From contig JAJEEE010000064.1 in NCBI GenBank assembly GCA_022821145.1, forward strand, positions 124,001-188,000: a stretch of 64,000 nt of DNA. The letters run 5' to 3'. The notes below the pieces were generated by a model, which had not been told where the DNA came from, made no database searches, and saw nothing but the letters and a program-made list of their open reading frames with translations. The translations under genes were made by a program, and so were the position numbers. Origin of the DNA: Acidobacteriota bacterium (GTDB lineage Bacteria > Acidobacteriota > Terriglobia > 20CM-2-55-15). Below are positions 41,943-57,392 of this stretch, piece by piece. Each line of letters begins with the position of its first letter. Positions within the stretch are counted from its first letter, which is position 1.

Positions 41943-42716
41943 ATGCCGACGGAAACGGAGCTCCGGCAACAGATCGCGGATTTTTCCCGGTTGTGCTACC
42001 AGAAGGACTACCTGGCGGCCACCGACGGAAACCTGAGCGCGCGCCTTCCCGACGGCAACGTCCTCTGCACGCCGACGCGCACCAACAAGGGATTCGTCCG
42101 GCCCGAGGATTCGGTGGTCGTGGACCTGGACGGCCGGCTCGTGCGCGGCGACCGGAAGGCGTCCAGCGAGATCGAAATGCACACGCTCGTCTACCGGCTG
42201 CGGCCCGACGTTCACGCCGTCGTGCACTGCCACCCGCAGGCGGCGACGGCCTACGCGGCCGCCGGGTTGCCGCTCAACAAGGCGCTGATCTCCGAGGTGG
42301 TGCTCGCGCTGGGATGCATCCCGATCGCCAACTACGGCACGCCGGGCACGCCGGAACTGTCCGAACAGCTCACGCCGTTCGTCGAGCACTACGACGCCCT
42401 GCTGATGGCCAATCACGGGGTCGTGACCTACGGCGCCGACATGATGGACGCCTACAACCGCATGGACACGGTCGAACACTTCGCCAAGATATCCATATAC
42501 ACCCGGATCCTGGGCAAGGAGCAACTGCTGTCCTCGGACGATGTCGAGAAACTCTGGGTTCAACGGCAGAAATACTTCGGCCTGGAGACCGCGGACGCGG
42601 CGCGCCCCAAGGACCCGATGTGTCCGGTCACGGCCGGACCATCGGACACGGTGTCGATGTCCAAGGCCGATCTGGTCGACCTGATCACCGAGGTCGTGTC
42701 GCATCTGGAAAAGTAA
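41943..42716 (+). CDS. Class II aldolase (fuculose-1-phosphate aldolase-like) of a microcompartment locus
   Basis: 257 residues. TDGNLSARL, SSEIEMHTLVYRLRPDVHAV and VVHCHPQAATAYA give the phosphate-binding and zinc residues (His95, His97), with His158 in MANHGVVTYG. The enzyme class splits sugar phosphates such as fuculose- or rhamnulose-1-phosphate to dihydroxyacetone phosphate and lactaldehyde. Residues 210-240 are a Pro/Gly/Ser-rich linker and the last 18 residues, SKADLVDLITEVVSHLEK, form an amphipathic helix of the kind that directs enzymes into microcompartments. Shell genes begin 30 bases downstream. Substrate and encapsulation are inferred. Confidence 0.85.
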   Translation: MPTETELRQQIADFSRLCYQKDYLAATDGNLSARLPDGNVLCTPTRTNKGFVRPEDSVVVDLDGRLVRGDRKASSEIEMHTLVYRLRPDVHAVVHCHPQAATAYAAAGLPLNKALISEVVLALGCIPIANYGTPGTPELSEQLTPFVEHYDALLMANHGVVTYGADMMDAYNRMDTVEHFAKISIYTRILGKEQLLSSDDVEKLWVQRQKYFGLETADAARPKDPMCPVTAGPSDTVSMSKADLVDLITEVVSHLEK

Positions 42717-42746: not shown

Positions 42747-43049
42747 ATGGCACAACAGGAAGCGATGGGCGAAGCCCTGGGCATGATCGAGACCCGGGGC
42801 CTGGTGGCGTTGATCGAGGCGTCGGACGCGATGGTGAAAGCCGCCAAGGTCAGCCTGATGGGTTGGGAGAAGATCGGTTCCGGGTACGTCACCGCGATCG
42901 TCCGCGGCGACGTCGCGGCCGTCAAGGCGGCGACCGACGCCGGCGCCGCCGCGGCTCGCCGCGTGGGCGAGCTGATCAGCGTCCACGTGATCCCGCGCCC
43001 GCACTCCAATCTCGAGGACGTGTTCGCCATAGGCAAGGCCGCCAAGTAG
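42747..43049 (+). CDS. BMC-H microcompartment shell protein (hexamer)
   Basis: 100 residues with an AAGGAGCAAGG before the [63 protein letters not shown] and [10 protein letters not shown]-like ending ([17 protein letters not shown]) are canonical PduA/EutM features. KIGSG forms the central pore loop of the hexamer. It should tile the facets of a protein shell. It is the only hexamer gene in the window and no trimer (BMC-T) gene is present. Confidence 0.96.
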
Positions 43050-43061
43050 GCCCCGCGGGCG

Positions 43062-43328
43062 ATGCAACTGGCACGGGTCATCGGCACCGTCGTGGCCACC
43101 CGCAAAGATGCACGGCTCGAAGGCAAGAAGCTGCTGATCTGCCGCCCGGTCGACATCGACGGCGGCGACGAGACCGGGTACGTGGTCGCCGTCGACACCG
43201 TGTCCGCCGGTTACCGCGAAACGGTACTCGTGGTCCAGGGCAGCTCCGCCCGCATGTCGTCCGGTTGCGAGGACCGTCCCGTCGACGCGGCGATCGTCGG
43301 CATCGTCGACGAAGTTTCGAAGGATTAG
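43062..43328 (+). CDS. BMC-P shell vertex protein (EutN/CcmL family), copy 1
   Basis: 88 residues, 12 bases after the hexamer gene. LARVIGTVVATRKDARLEGK is the conserved N-terminal strand pair. LLICRPVDIDG, VVAVDTVSAGYRETVLVVQG, SSAR and PVDAAIVGIVDEV complete the small beta barrel that forms pentamers. Pentamers close the vertices of the icosahedral shell. It is the most typical of the three copies. Confidence 0.95.
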   Translation: MQLARVIGTVVATRKDARLEGKKLLICRPVDIDGGDETGYVVAVDTVSAGYRETVLVVQGSSARMSSGCEDRPVDAAIVGIVDEVSKD

Positions 43329-43332
43329 TGTC

Positions 43333-43584
43333 GTGTATCTCGGTGACGTCATCGGGCGCGTCGTCGCCACGGCCAAGGACGAGACGCTCGTAGGCCGCAC
43401 GCTGCTGCTGGTCCGCCGCCGGGCGGACGGCCGCGCCGTGGTCGCCATCGACGCGGTCGGCGCCGGCGCCGGCGAGTGCGTCTACGTCTGCCGCGGCCGC
43501 GAATCCTCGTTCGCCTTCTTGCCCGGCCGCGCGCCGTCGGACGCCACGGTCGTCGGCATCGTCGACCGGATGGATCCGTCATGA
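43333..43584 (+). CDS. BMC-P shell vertex protein, copy 2
   Basis: 83 residues from GTG 43333. YLGDVIGRVVATAKDETLVG, LLLVRRRADGRAVVAIDAVG and GECVYVCRGRESSFAF, ending ATVVGIVDRM, show the same fold with a shorter 30s loop. The GRESSF stretch replaces the usual GSSAR, so its vertex pore or interface may differ. It overlaps the next pentamer gene by four bases (ATGA). Confidence 0.93.
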   Translation: MYLGDVIGRVVATAKDETLVGRTLLLVRRRADGRAVVAIDAVGAGAGECVYVCRGRESSFAFLPGRAPSDATVVGIVDRMDPS

Positions 43585-43886
43585 TCCTGGGCCGCGTCGT
43601 GGGCACGGTCGTCGCGACACGCAAGCACGCGAGCCATGAGGGCCGGAAGGTGTTGACGGTCCAGCCGATCGATCCCGAGGGCGCCGACGCGGGCCACCCG
43701 GTGCTGGCCCTGGACGGGGGCCCCGGCGTGGACGCCGGCCCGGGCGACCGGGTGCTGGTGGTTCAGGAAGGCTGGTCCGCCGCGACGACGGTCGGGCCCG
43801 AGGGCGCCCCCATCGACGCCGCCATCGTCGGCGTCGTCGACGAAATCCAGTTGGCCGAACCGGCCCCGGAGGCGGCCACGCCGTGA
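43581..43886 (+). CDS. BMC-P shell vertex protein, copy 3, with extended tail
   Basis: 101 residues from ATG 43581, overlapping copy 2 by ATGA. ILGRVVGTVVATRKHASHEG, VLTVQPIDPEG, AGPGDRVLVVQEGWSA and PIDAAIVGVVDEI fit the family. It adds an Ala/Pro/Glu-rich tail ([12 protein letters not shown]) absent in the others. Its stop overlaps the GTG of ruvA (GTGA at 43883-43886), so the shell operon is translationally coupled to a DNA repair gene. Confidence 0.93.
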   Translation: MILGRVVGTVVATRKHASHEGRKVLTVQPIDPEGADAGHPVLALDGGPGVDAGPGDRVLVVQEGWSAATTVGPEGAPIDAAIVGVVDEIQLAEPAPEAATP

Positions 43887-44461
43887 TCGGACGGCTTCGC
43901 GGTCAACTCTTCGAGAAGAAACCCGGCCACTTGATCGTCGACGTCCACGGCGTCGGGTACCAGGTCTTCGTGGCCGTTCCGACCTACGCCGCGGCGCCGG
44001 ATCCGGGCGGCGACGTCGCCCTGGAGATTCACACGCACGTCCGTGACGACGCCATCCAGCTCTACGGCTTCGCGAGCGCCCGCGAGCGCGCCGTCTTCGA
44101 GCGCCTCGTGGGAATCTCGGGAATCGGCCCCCGGCTGGCGCTGACGATCCTGTCGGGCGGATCCGTGGACGGCCTGATCCGGTCGATCCGGAACGGCGAC
44201 CTGGCCCGCCTGACCTCGATTCCGGGAATCGGGAAGAAGACGGCCGAACGGATCCTGCTGGAGCTCAAGGACGCGCTCCGCGGCCTGGACGTCGAAGACG
44301 AGACGGCCGGGAGCGAAGGCGACGTCGTCTCGGCCATGGAGAACCTGGGGTACAACCGCGCCGCGGTCGAGGCCGCCGTCCGCCGCGCGATCGACGGGGC
44401 GTCCGATCCCGGCTTCGACGCGTTGTTCAAGCGCGTCCTGCAGATCCTGACCCGGGAGTGA
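43883..44461 (+). CDS. ruvA: Holliday junction DNA helicase subunit RuvA
   Basis: 192 residues, GTG start. [20 protein letters not shown] and [13 protein letters not shown] form the N-terminal OB fold. [21 protein letters not shown] and [20 protein letters not shown] are the paired helix-hairpin-helix motifs that hold the junction, and the C-terminal three-helix domain ([20 protein letters not shown]) contacts RuvB. It recognises the four-way junction. It overlaps the third pentamer gene and is followed by ruvB after 7 bases. ruvC is not in the window. Confidence 0.96.
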
Positions 44462-53527: not shown

Positions 53528-53551
53528 CGGCGCCGGGCCTCGTTGCGCCCC

Positions 53552-55030
53552 ATGAAGCCGGAAGTTATCGACAAGCTCCGGGACATCGTCGGCGCCGACG
53601 GCGCGACCGACGACGCCGCCGAGCTCCTCGTCTACGAGTGTGACGCGCTGACGCTGTTCAAGAACAGCCCGGACGTCGTCGTGTTCCCCGCCGACACCGA
53701 GCAGGTCGCCGCCGTCGTCCGGCTCGCCAACGAATACGGGATCCCGTTCCTCCCGCGCGGCGCCGGCACGGGGCTGAGCGGAGGCGCGCTGGCCCTGGAA
53801 GGCGGCATCATCATCGAGCTCCAGCAGTTGAACCGGATCCTGTCGGTGGACGCCGAGAACCGCACGGCCGTGGTCCAGCCCGGCGTGGTCAACCTGCACC
53901 TGTCGCAGGCCGTGGCGCACCTCGGTCTCTACTACGCGCCCGACCCGTCCAGCCAGGTGGCGTGCAGCATCGGCGGCAACGTGGCCGAGAACGCGGGCGG
54001 GCCCCATTGCCTCAAGTACGGGATGACGACCAACCACGTACTGGAGGTGGAGGCCGTCGTCGCCGACGGAACCGTCGTCCGGCTCGGCTCGAAGACCGGG
54101 GAGCGGATCGGCTACGACATGGTGGGCGCGCTGGTGGGATCGGAGGGCACCTTCGCGATCGTCACCGAGATCACCGTCCGCCTCCTGAAGAAGCCCCAGT
54201 CCGTCAAGACCCTGCTCGCGGCGTTCCGTTCCGTCGAGGACTCCAGCCGGGCCGTCTCCGACGTGATCGCGGCGGGAATCGTGCCGGCCGCGCTGGAGTT
54301 CGTCGACCGGCGGACGACCGAGGCCGTGGAGGCGTCGGTCTACGCGGCGGGTTATCCGCTGGACGCCGCGGCCAGCCTCCTGATCGAGATCGACGGGTTC
54401 GAGGTGGCCGTCGAGGACACTCAGGCGTCGATCGTCGACGTCTGCCGGCGCAACCACGCGTTCGAGGTCCGCCTCGCGCGGAGCGAGGCCGAGCGCGCCC
54501 GCCTGTGGATGGGCCGCAAGGGCGCTTTCGGCGCCATGGGACGCATCAGCCCGGACATGATCACGATGGACGCGGTCATTCCCCGGACGCGGCTGCCCGA
54601 AGTCCTGACCGCCATCGAACGCTTGTCCGAGCAGCACGCGATGCCCGTGGCCAACGTGTTCCACGCCGGGGACGGCAACCTGCATCCGCTGATCCTGTAC
54701 GACGGACGGGACGCGGACCAGGTGGAACGCATCCACGCGCTCGGCGAGGCCATCATGGAAGTCTGCGTCGGCGTCGGGGGCGCGCTCAGCGGCGAGCACG
54801 GCATCGGCGTCGAGAAGAAGGACTTCATGTGCATGATCTTCAACGACGACGACCTGGCCGCGATGCGCCGGGCCAAGGGCGTCTTCAACCCCGATGGGCT
54901 CCTGAACCCCGGCAAGGTGTTTCCGTCGCGCCCCAGTTGTTCCGAGGTCGGACCGGGCGTCACGCGCACGGCCGAGGCGGCGCGGCGGATCGATGAGTAC
55001 GTTCGCGGCGCCGGCGAGGCGCGGGCGTGA
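53552..55030 (+). CDS. glcD: Glycolate oxidase FAD subunit GlcD
   Basis: 492 residues from ATG 53552. PDVVVFPADTEQVAAVVRLA, PFLPRGAGTGLSGGALALEG and IGGNVAENAGGPHCLKYGMT form the PCMH-type FAD-binding domain, with GSEGTFAIVTEITVRLL at its end. The C-terminal oxidase domain holds ANVFHAGDGNLHPLILYDGR and LSGEHGIGVEKKDFM, with histidines at the flavin and metal site. It oxidises glycolate (or D-lactate) to glyoxylate. It is followed without a gap by glcE and glcF, giving a complete three-subunit enzyme. Confidence 0.93.
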   Translation: MKPEVIDKLRDIVGADGATDDAAELLVYECDALTLFKNSPDVVVFPADTEQVAAVVRLANEYGIPFLPRGAGTGLSGGALALEGGIIIELQQLNRILSVDAENRTAVVQPGVVNLHLSQAVAHLGLYYAPDPSSQVACSIGGNVAENAGGPHCLKYGMTTNHVLEVEAVVADGTVVRLGSKTGERIGYDMVGALVGSEGTFAIVTEITVRLLKKPQSVKTLLAAFRSVEDSSRAVSDVIAAGIVPAALEFVDRRTTEAVEASVYAAGYPLDAAASLLIEIDGFEVAVEDTQASIVDVCRRNHAFEVRLARSEAERARLWMGRKGAFGAMGRISPDMITMDAVIPRTRLPEVLTAIERLSEQHAMPVANVFHAGDGNLHPLILYDGRDADQVERIHALGEAIMEVCVGVGGALSGEHGIGVEKKDFMCMIFNDDDLAAMRRAKGVFNPDGLLNPGKVFPSRPSCSEVGPGVTRTAEAARRIDEYVRGAGEARA

Positions 55031-56145
55031 TCGTCGATTCGCGCGCCGTCGACCGGGTGCTCGCGCCGGCGTCGGCCGGGGAACTGGCCGAGATGATGCG
55101 TTCCGAGACCGGGACGATCGCCCCCGTCGGCGCCGGCACCGAGTTGTCGCTGGGAAACCCCCTCGAGCCGATCGACGCCGCGATCGACACGCGCCGGCTG
55201 GACCGGATCACCGAGTACGTTCCGGCCGACCTGACGATCCACGTGGAGTCCGGGGTCCGGCTCGGCCAGCTCGCCGGGGCGCTCGCCGAACACGGACAGA
55301 TGCTGCCGCTCGATCCGTGGAACGGCCCCGAGGCGACGATCGGCGGCGTGGTCGCCACCAACGCGCAGGGGCCGCTTCGGGCCGTCGGGACGGTGCGCGA
55401 CTGGATCATCGGCATGCAGGTCGTCGACTCCGGCGGGCGGGCGTCCAAGACGGGCGGCCGCGTCGTCAAGAACGTCTCCGGCTACGACCTGGCCAAGTTG
55501 TACACGGGGTCCCTGGGCTCCCTGGCCGTGATATCCGAGATCAGCTTCAAGCTGCGCGCCGCCTTCGCGGCCACGGCCTCGGCGCGCCTCCGCCCCGGCG
55601 GCCTCGCCGAGGCCGCCGACGTCATCCGGGAGATTCGCTCCGGCCCGCTCGAGCCGGTCTCGCTGGTCTGGGCCGGACCCGAAGACCCGTTCGTCGCCGT
55701 GCGCTTCGGCGAACATCCGCGGGCCGTCGAGTGGCAGCTCGATCGACTGCCCGGCGAGGGCTGGGAGCGGTTCGACGCGGAGACCGAGTCCGCGGTCTGG
55801 GACGCGGTGCGGGACCGGTACCGCGCACTGGCCGAACCGGTGGTCCGCGTGGCCGCGCCGCCCTCCGAGGCGCGGGCCGTGATCGAGCGGTTCCGGCCCG
55901 AGTCGTGGCTCGTCCACGCGGCCAACGGGACGATCCTGATGACGGCGGGCGTGGACGCCATCGCCCGGCTGCGCGAGCGCCATCCCACCCTCGTCGAACG
56001 GGCGCCCCGGGAAGTGCGGCTTCAGGCCGGCGTGTTCGGGCTGACGGGCGCCGAGTACGACCTGATGCGCCGCGTGAAGACCGCGTTCGACCCGGAGGGC
56101 CGCCTGAACCCCGGCCGCCACGTCGACGGAGAACGCCCGGCATGA
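55027..56145 (+). CDS. glcE: Glycolate oxidase FAD-binding subunit GlcE
   Basis: 372 residues, GTG overlapping the glcD stop (GTGA). APVGAGTELSLGNPLEPIDA, LTIHVESGVRLGQLAGALAE, PEATIGGVVATNAQGPLRAV and KTGGRVVKNVSGYDLAKLYT are the conserved FAD-domain blocks of GlcE, followed by GSLGSLAVISEISFKL. The C-terminal half is shorter and more variable, as is usual. It forms the membrane-associated glycolate dehydrogenase with GlcD and GlcF. The next gene overlaps by ATGA. Confidence 0.92.
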   Translation: MIVDSRAVDRVLAPASAGELAEMMRSETGTIAPVGAGTELSLGNPLEPIDAAIDTRRLDRITEYVPADLTIHVESGVRLGQLAGALAEHGQMLPLDPWNGPEATIGGVVATNAQGPLRAVGTVRDWIIGMQVVDSGGRASKTGGRVVKNVSGYDLAKLYTGSLGSLAVISEISFKLRAAFAATASARLRPGGLAEAADVIREIRSGPLEPVSLVWAGPEDPFVAVRFGEHPRAVEWQLDRLPGEGWERFDAETESAVWDAVRDRYRALAEPVVRVAAPPSEARAVIERFRPESWLVHAANGTILMTAGVDAIARLRERHPTLVERAPREVRLQAGVFGLTGAEYDLMRRVKTAFDPEGRLNPGRHVDGERPA

Positions 56146-57392
56146 GCCCGGCCGTCCAGGAAGAACCCCGAACCACGCGGCAAGGCTACCTGGACTGCAT
56201 CCACTGCGGCCTGTGCCTGTCCTCGTGCCCCACCTACCGCGTCCTCGGCAACGAGATGGACTCCCCCCGCGGCCGCGTGCACCTGATGCGCGCCTACGAC
56301 GAGGGGCGCACCCCGATCACCGACACGTTCGTCGAGCACATGTTCCGCTGCCTGGACTGCCGGGCCTGCGAAACGGCCTGTCCGTCCGGCGTCCAGTTCG
56401 GAACGATGATGGAAGACATGCGGGGCGCGATCCTGGACGAGCGCGGCGCCGACCCCCTCACGCGCTTCGTCATGAACCACGTGTTCCCGTATCCGTGGCG
56501 CTTTCACCTGGCGGCCCGCCTGCTGCAGTTCTACCGGCAGTCCGGGCTGCAAGGCCTGGTCCGGGCCACCGGAGTGCTCGCCCGGATCGCCCCCGGATAC
56601 GCCGCCGCCGAGGCCATGACGCCGGAAGCGCCGCTGCAGACCGGGGTCCAGACTGGACACACCTACCGCGCCGCCGGGCGGGCGCGCGGCACGGTCGCGT
56701 TGTTCTCGGGCTGCGTGATGAACTCGCTGCTCGGCGACGTCAACCGCGCCACGGTGGCGCTTCTGAACCGGGCCGGATTCGACGTCGCCGTGCCGGACGG
56801 CCAGGTCTGCTGCGGCGCGCTGGCCAACCACGCCGGCCTCAGGGACACGGCCCGCGGCATGGCCCGCGAGAACCTGGGACGATTCCCCGTCGACGGCGTC
56901 GACGCCGTCATCGTCAACGCATCCGGATGCGGCGCCATGCTCGCCGAGTATCCGCTGCTCGTCGAGGGCGCCGAGGCGTTCGCCTCGAAGGTCCAGGACG
57001 TGTCCGCGTTCCTGGCCCGGGCGTCGTTCGACGACGCGCTGACCCGCCCGGTCCGCGCCCGGGTCGGCTACGACGACCCGTGCCACCTGATTCACGCCCA
57101 GGGCGTCTCCCGCCCGCCGCGGGACCTGCTCCGGGCGGTCCCCGGCGTCGAGTTCGTCGAGGTCGCCGGCGCCGACGAGTGCTGCGGCAGCGCCGGCGTC
57201 TACAACCTGACGCACCGCGAGCTGTCGATGGAGATCCTGGACCGCAAGATGGAACGCGTCCGCGCCGCGAACCTCGACATCCTGGTCACCGGCAACCCGG
57301 GCTGCCTGTTCCAGCTCCGGTACGGCGCGCGGCGCCACGGACTCGACCTGGAAGTCACACACATCGCGGAGTTCCTCCACCGGGCGGTTTGA
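56142..57392 (+). CDS. glcF: Glycolate oxidase iron-sulfur subunit GlcF
   Basis: 416 residues from ATG 56142. CIHCGLCLSSCPTYRVLG and CLDCRACETACPSGVQFG are two 4Fe-4S ferredoxin motifs. The C-terminal half has two CCG domains: VALFSGCVMNSLLGDVNRAT with QVCCGALANHAGL, and YDDPCHLIHAQGVSRPPRD with DECCGSAGVYNLTH. It passes electrons from the flavin subunits to quinone. The sequence at 57291-57332, near the end, recurs as a fragment at 58164-58205 beyond hicAB. Confidence 0.94.
   Translation: MSPAVQEEPRTTRQGYLDCIHCGLCLSSCPTYRVLGNEMDSPRGRVHLMRAYDEGRTPITDTFVEHMFRCLDCRACETACPSGVQFGTMMEDMRGAILDERGADPLTRFVMNHVFPYPWRFHLAARLLQFYRQSGLQGLVRATGVLARIAPGYAAAEAMTPEAPLQTGVQTGHTYRAAGRARGTVALFSGCVMNSLLGDVNRATVALLNRAGFDVAVPDGQVCCGALANHAGLRDTARGMARENLGRFPVDGVDAVIVNASGCGAMLAEYPLLVEGAEAFASKVQDVSAFLARASFDDALTRPVRARVGYDDPCHLIHAQGVSRPPRDLLRAVPGVEFVEVAGADECCGSAGVYNLTHRELSMEILDRKMERVRAANLDILVTGNPGCLFQLRYGARRHGLDLEVTHIAEFLHRAV

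Follow-up and report, generated by a model that had tools for sequence, protein, structure and literature searches.

Where an aldolase gene heads a cluster of bacterial microcompartment shell genes, the question arises whether the enzyme is carried into the shell by its own C-terminus. Such a cluster was analyzed in a window of 64,000 nucleotides, the whole stretch of DNA under study, from contig JAJEEE010000064.1 of an Acidobacteriota bacterium whose genome is 99% complete. The gene order is aldolase, BMC-H, three BMC-P, ruvA and ruvB, and the order glmU-glmS-uvrD-[BMC]-ruvAB, in which the bracket stands for the aldolase, BMC-H and the three BMC-P, is retained in near relatives. The features of the window considered here are as follows:

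41943..42716, +, class II (FucA-type) aldolase with a C-terminal extension, 257 aa (PF00596, E=1.5e-47; fold match to FucA structures)
41943..42581, +, aldolase catalytic domain, residues 1-213 (free FucA structures stop at the equivalent of residue 213-215)
42582..42659, +, aldolase linker, residues 214-239 (AlphaFold2 pLDDT < 50 over 217-239)
42621..42623, +, linker cysteine codon, Cys227 in DPMCPVT (tail cysteine conserved in BMC-H genomes)
42660..42713, +, encapsulation-peptide-like helix SKADLVDLITEVVSHLEK, residues 240-257 (predicted helix 241-256; motif shared by relatives)
42747..43049, +, BMC-H shell protein, 100 aa, with AMVKAA and a second 10-residue motif (PF00936, E=7e-30)
43062..43328, +, BMC-P shell vertex protein 1 (PF03319, E=1e-29)
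43333..43584, +, BMC-P shell vertex protein 2 (PF03319, E=1e-22)
43581..43886, +, BMC-P shell vertex protein 3, overlapping the ruvA start (PF03319, E=1e-22)

The third BMC-P gene (43581-43886) overlaps the 5' start of ruvA (43883-44461), the cluster lying between uvrD and ruvAB. Genome-wide, three BMC-P genes (PF03319) were found, all in the window cluster, and two PF00936 genes, the second BMC-H being located on another contig beside an AldDH gene.

The catalytic part of the aldolase resembles FucA-type structures both by sequence and by fold. The Pfam Aldolase_II match spans residues 9-184, and homologue comparison showed Glu76, His95, His97 and His158, the metal and catalytic residues of FucA, to be invariant. 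Assignment of a substrate via NCBIfam, including equivalog status as an L-fuculose-1-phosphate aldolase, was dropped, since no model reached its cut-off; the best family scores fell well short of it, for example 127.5 bits where 250 are required and 121.2 where 264 are. Solved free FucA proteins (PDB 1fua, 4c24) share the catalytic fold and the metal-site residues with the window aldolase but align with it only up to about residue 213-215, so that some 42-44 residues of the latter are extra. The tail that the preliminary description had placed beyond the catalytic domain is real, consisting of about 44 additional residues that form a linker and an 18-residue terminal helix, and the alignment with free aldolases that it had proposed confirmed that these have neither linker nor helix.

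Encapsulation peptides (EPs) are recognized by a terminal amphipathic helix of 15-20 residues and a disordered linker to the cargo domain, both of which were found in the aldolase tail. In AlphaFold2 predictions with 13 homologues, a low-confidence linker (pLDDT < 50 at 217-239) is followed by a terminal helix of modest confidence at 241-256, within the segment SKADLVDLITEVVSHLEK that ends the translated ORF (41943-42716). The linker, LETADAARPKDPMCPVTAGPSDTVSM, had been described as a Pro/Gly/Ser linker; it is present, but these residues make up only 7 of its 26 positions, a weak enrichment. The helix had been likened to amphipathic helices that load enzymes into microcompartments, a likeness upheld by the family more than by the single sequence. 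Taken alone, the window helix is marginally more amphipathic than shuffled sequences (p about 0.04), so the case for it rests on family conservation, the pattern [T/S]-[R/K/Y/H]-x-[E/D/Q]-L-x-x-L-I being common to 80 of 86 BMC-linked relatives.

The idea of an aldolase EP is not new, because the window matches a published arrangement. The ACI type, defined in Acidobacteria by Sutter et al. 2021 (PMC8217296), comprises a class II aldolase with a C-terminal EP, a hydroxyacid dehydrogenase, a BMC-P triplet, BMC-H and an AldDH at a satellite locus. Shared with it are the PF00596 aldolase with its C-terminal EP-like tail, the BMC-P triplet, the presence of one or more BMC-H genes (PF00936; two in the source genome), an AldDH at a satellite locus, where it adjoins the second BMC-H (BMC-H2) on another contig, and confinement to Acidobacteria, the BMC-linked relatives belonging to Acidobacteria, Terriglobia or Ca. 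Sulfopaludibacter. The locus differs in being a compact cluster of five genes between uvrD and ruvAB, in having relatives (gp5, Ca. Sulfopaludibacter) outside subdivisions 4 and 6 emphasized in that study (PMC8217296), and in that no hydroxyacid dehydrogenase (PF00389/PF02826) was seen in the window or in five other loci, by motif scan only. This published, experimentally uncharacterized organelle type is now seen in a further acidobacterial lineage. The PVM and GRM5 (L-fucose/L-rhamnose) types also have a PF00596 aldolase as aldehyde-producing lumen enzyme; they differ from the present system in that the source genome has no PduL (PF06130), which leaves the usual metabolosome core incomplete, and in that the window cluster contains neither a glycyl radical enzyme nor a lactaldehyde reductase. 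With the EPs of Pdu cargo (PduP, PduD, PduL) the tail shares a terminal amphipathic helix of about 18 residues and a disordered linker, but it is C-terminal, carries a conserved linker cysteine and has a type of helix that is also retained in some shell-less relatives. EPs dock in a groove of the shell hexamer, and groove motifs are known in PduA (PMC11157265); the window BMC-H has both, AMVKAA and the second 10-residue motif.

At the satellite locus, the AldDH (573 aa; L021:8356-10077, (-), contig C34 of the same genome) adjoins BMC-H2. This enzyme was present in 16 of 17 BMC-bearing genomes tested versus none of 8 shell-less ones; in genome G222, the only AldDH relative was a 45% identical paralogue within a 934-aa frame. 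From its motif FDNGTLCSSEQ, we take the satellite AldDH to be acylating.

The distribution of tail and shell was analyzed in 396 Acidobacteriota genomes, which were searched for aldolase relatives and PF00936; 122 aldolase loci were read, including a few near-duplicates and 12 from separate searches. A C-terminal tail of 38-103 aa was present in all 88 loci from BMC-H-positive genomes, and in 83 of these BMC-H lay within the fetched flank. The 34 loci from genomes without a BMC-H match comprised 27 tailless ones, three from partial MAGs with BMC-P and four tailed ones. Genomes G060, G068 and G091 were discarded as tailed shell-less exceptions, since they are partial MAGs in which BMC-P is present. 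The 27 aldolases of a shell-less Terriglobia clade have no EP-like tail; a remnant behind premature stops, to which read-through matches had pointed, was considered and rejected, since no EP-like sequence followed the stop in 20 loci read on. Genome G301 and the related MAGs L012-L014 kept the tail, with BMC-H, BMC-P and the satellite AldDH all absent. On the tree of catalytic domains there is a single change in the tail and there are two in shell presence, so that the phylum sample alone is no proof of coupling between them. Rooting with the free aldolases L015-L017 was abandoned as unreliable, given very long outgroup branches and the placement of L017 inside the ingroup, and gain versus loss of the tail therefore rests on parsimony.

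The family of G301 comprises 61 genomes, 51 with the aldolase and 45 with BMC-H. With the same aldolase occurring in members that have a shell and in members that do not, the family amounts to a natural experiment on the encapsulation tail. Together with L012-L014, 49 aldolases were read, 39 from BMC-H genomes and 10 from genomes without BMC-H; for six of these ten, the genome-wide search covered BMC-H only, and G452 is 89% complete. The shell-less aldolases descend from or sit among shell-bearing kin. A helix of the same kind was found in eight of the ten (G301, G440, G441, G452, G461 and L012-L014), and the aldolases of G415 and G456 stop short of it. The same tail on FucA-type aldolases of genomes without BMC genes, which the preliminary description had named as evidence against its own proposal, therefore exists in eight cases devoid of BMC-H, although it is absent from the 27 Terriglobia. 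Because the helix is retained in these eight, it is by itself insufficient evidence for encapsulation, and its persistence without a shell calls for caution in inferring encapsulation from a tail alone. In the G301/L012 lineage, identity is 65% in the catalytic domain, 63% in the linker and 75% in the last 20 residues, and the linker value lies above the maximum of 56% among 138 shell-bearing pairs at 60-70% catalytic identity. Compared with L012-L014 together, G301 shows 35% catalytic divergence, yet 70-75% of the last 20 residues are shared. Judged from these alignments, the helix appears to be under selection in at least one shell-less lineage. Helix residues E246 and V251 (numbering of reference L222) drift in the shell-less rows, which suggests a relaxed or changed partner.

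Besides the helix, the linker cysteine seems to form a second component of the tail, one that matters only in the presence of a shell. A tail cysteine was present in 87 of 88 loci from BMC-H genomes, the first one located 6-15 positions past the catalytic domain. In the G301 family plus L012-L014, the linker cysteine was found in 38 of 39 rows with BMC-H, counting L273 (PGCPAALED), versus 0 of 10 without; in the G301 family it lies within a PGCP[VL] motif. Its replacements in the shell-less rows are R, A, P, A, M, M, N, W, W and W, six different residues, and the flanking P, A and E are unchanged. The single BMC-H genome that lacks it is G434, in which the fetched aldolase flank has no shell gene and the BMC-H genes are in other loci. 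Among 257 alignment columns, which were not preselected, that of the linker cysteine ranked top (Fisher 1.3e-9, with related rows), and of 94 highly conserved columns no other was lost in all seven shell-less lineages. Next came the columns of two catalytic-domain cysteines, at L222 positions 125 (39 of 39 with shell versus 2 of 10 without) and 162 (37 of 39 versus 2 of 10), and of a helix Glu, so that three of the top four shell-tracking columns are cysteines. Parsimony gave five shell changes and six cysteine changes, with about six shell losses inferred; only two independent pairs fall on well-supported branches, and the association of cysteine and shell consequently has no formal significance after phylogeny is taken into account. 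No conserved partner cysteine was found in the shell proteins, in which no column exceeds about half Cys. We found no report of a linker cysteine of this kind in the literature searched, beyond which one may exist. Within the G301 family, the presence of the linker cysteine appears to be the best indicator of a shell, predicting it better than that of the helix. What is new here is this shell-tracking cysteine, together with helix retention without a shell.

The best reading of these sequences is of a kind already known: the tail is very probably a C-terminal encapsulation peptide, which would make the FucA-type aldolase a lumen enzyme of an ACI-type microcompartment. The tail itself, its conservation, the gene context, the satellite AldDH with its BMC-H and the co-distribution with shell genes support it. 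The amphipathic helix would bind shell hexamers, and probably also other such helices, and disordered linker and helix would together bring the aldolase into the shell lumen. There, the enzyme would cleave a ketose-1-phosphate to dihydroxyacetone phosphate and a short aldehyde, which the satellite acylating AldDH would trap as acyl-CoA; docking on the hexamer groove, lumen localization, the substrate and the hand-over of the aldehyde are steps that we infer. Points against encapsulation are the eight helix-keeping shell-less aldolases, the small number of shell losses (about six) and the lack of formal significance after phylogeny, and also the marginal amphipathicity of the window helix, the missing PduL and the failure of the motif scan to reveal a hydroxyacid dehydrogenase in the window. 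As an extension, we consider plausible, if somewhat short of probable, a two-part tail, in which the helix could serve in the absence of a shell and the linker cysteine would be required only inside one, disappearing whenever the shell is lost. The cysteine would then be a lumen-dependent element, such as an inter-tail disulfide cross-link, a ligand for a metal, or a cap that covers the metal site and silences the enzyme until encapsulated, candidates for its chemistry that are speculation.

Retention of the helix without a shell may also be viewed differently. EPs have been reported to assemble into trimeric bundles and to cause condensation even when no shell is present (PMC12339742), and also to aggregate cargo (PMC7221423); through such self-association the helix would still be useful to relatives that have no shell. 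On these grounds, the helix could serve primarily in self-assembly, gathering aldolase tetramers, together with partners, into condensates whether a shell is present or not; encapsulation would be an added use in lineages that have shell genes. This would fit the eight shell-less aldolases that retain it and the one shell-less lineage in which it is as conserved as the enzyme, but the shell-less Terriglobia clade has no tail, G415 and G456 have a truncated one, and E246 and V251 drift; as the primary function, we hold it to be rather unlikely. Also doubtful is the notion that the shell was lost recently and the helix is a relic not yet decayed. Sister genomes are mostly shell-bearing (45 of 61), the helix has already disappeared from two shell-less members and none of the ten retains the linker cysteine, whereas the similarity of the last 20 residues between G301 and L012-L014, across their catalytic divergence, is above expectation for a decaying relic if the shell loss was shared. 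Neither of these two explanations is exclusive of encapsulation, and both mainly address the shell-less relatives.

If the tail were an ordinary C-terminal part of aldolases of this subfamily, serving in tetramer packing or as an active-site lid and unrelated to the shell, it would co-occur with shell genes through shared ancestry. Tail retention without a shell, the few independent shell losses and the want of formal significance after phylogeny are compatible with such an element. However, free FucA structures lack the tail, the linker is predicted to be disordered, a length varying from 38 to 103 aa is unlike a packed element, the tail was lost in the shell-less Terriglobia clade and the EP assignment is already published (PMC8217296), all of which makes this explanation highly improbable.

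Some further observations concern the loci described. Contig C22 of genome G434 carries another tandem BMC-H cluster (C22:1048230-1052378), some 3 kb from which lies a more distant aldolase, and the ACI-type aldolase of the same genome is without the linker cysteine. Roughly 10 kb downstream of its shell genes, the window encodes a glycolate oxidase set of GlcDEF-like type (an FAD oxidase, a second FAD subunit and an Fe-S/CCG protein; 53543-57389); proximity is its only link to them, and it could be relevant should the aldehyde be glycolaldehyde. In the satellite AldDH, the C-terminus is much extended: the EP-like segment RRERITAIVDGWLDRR and a linker rich in Pro and Ala are found there together with a conserved end segment, KTIITPAARDLGE, which is common to most satellite AldDHs aligned. 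Directly upstream of the satellite BMC-H and AldDH pair is a gene for a cytochrome P460 family protein (PF16694; L021:10459-11136, (-)).
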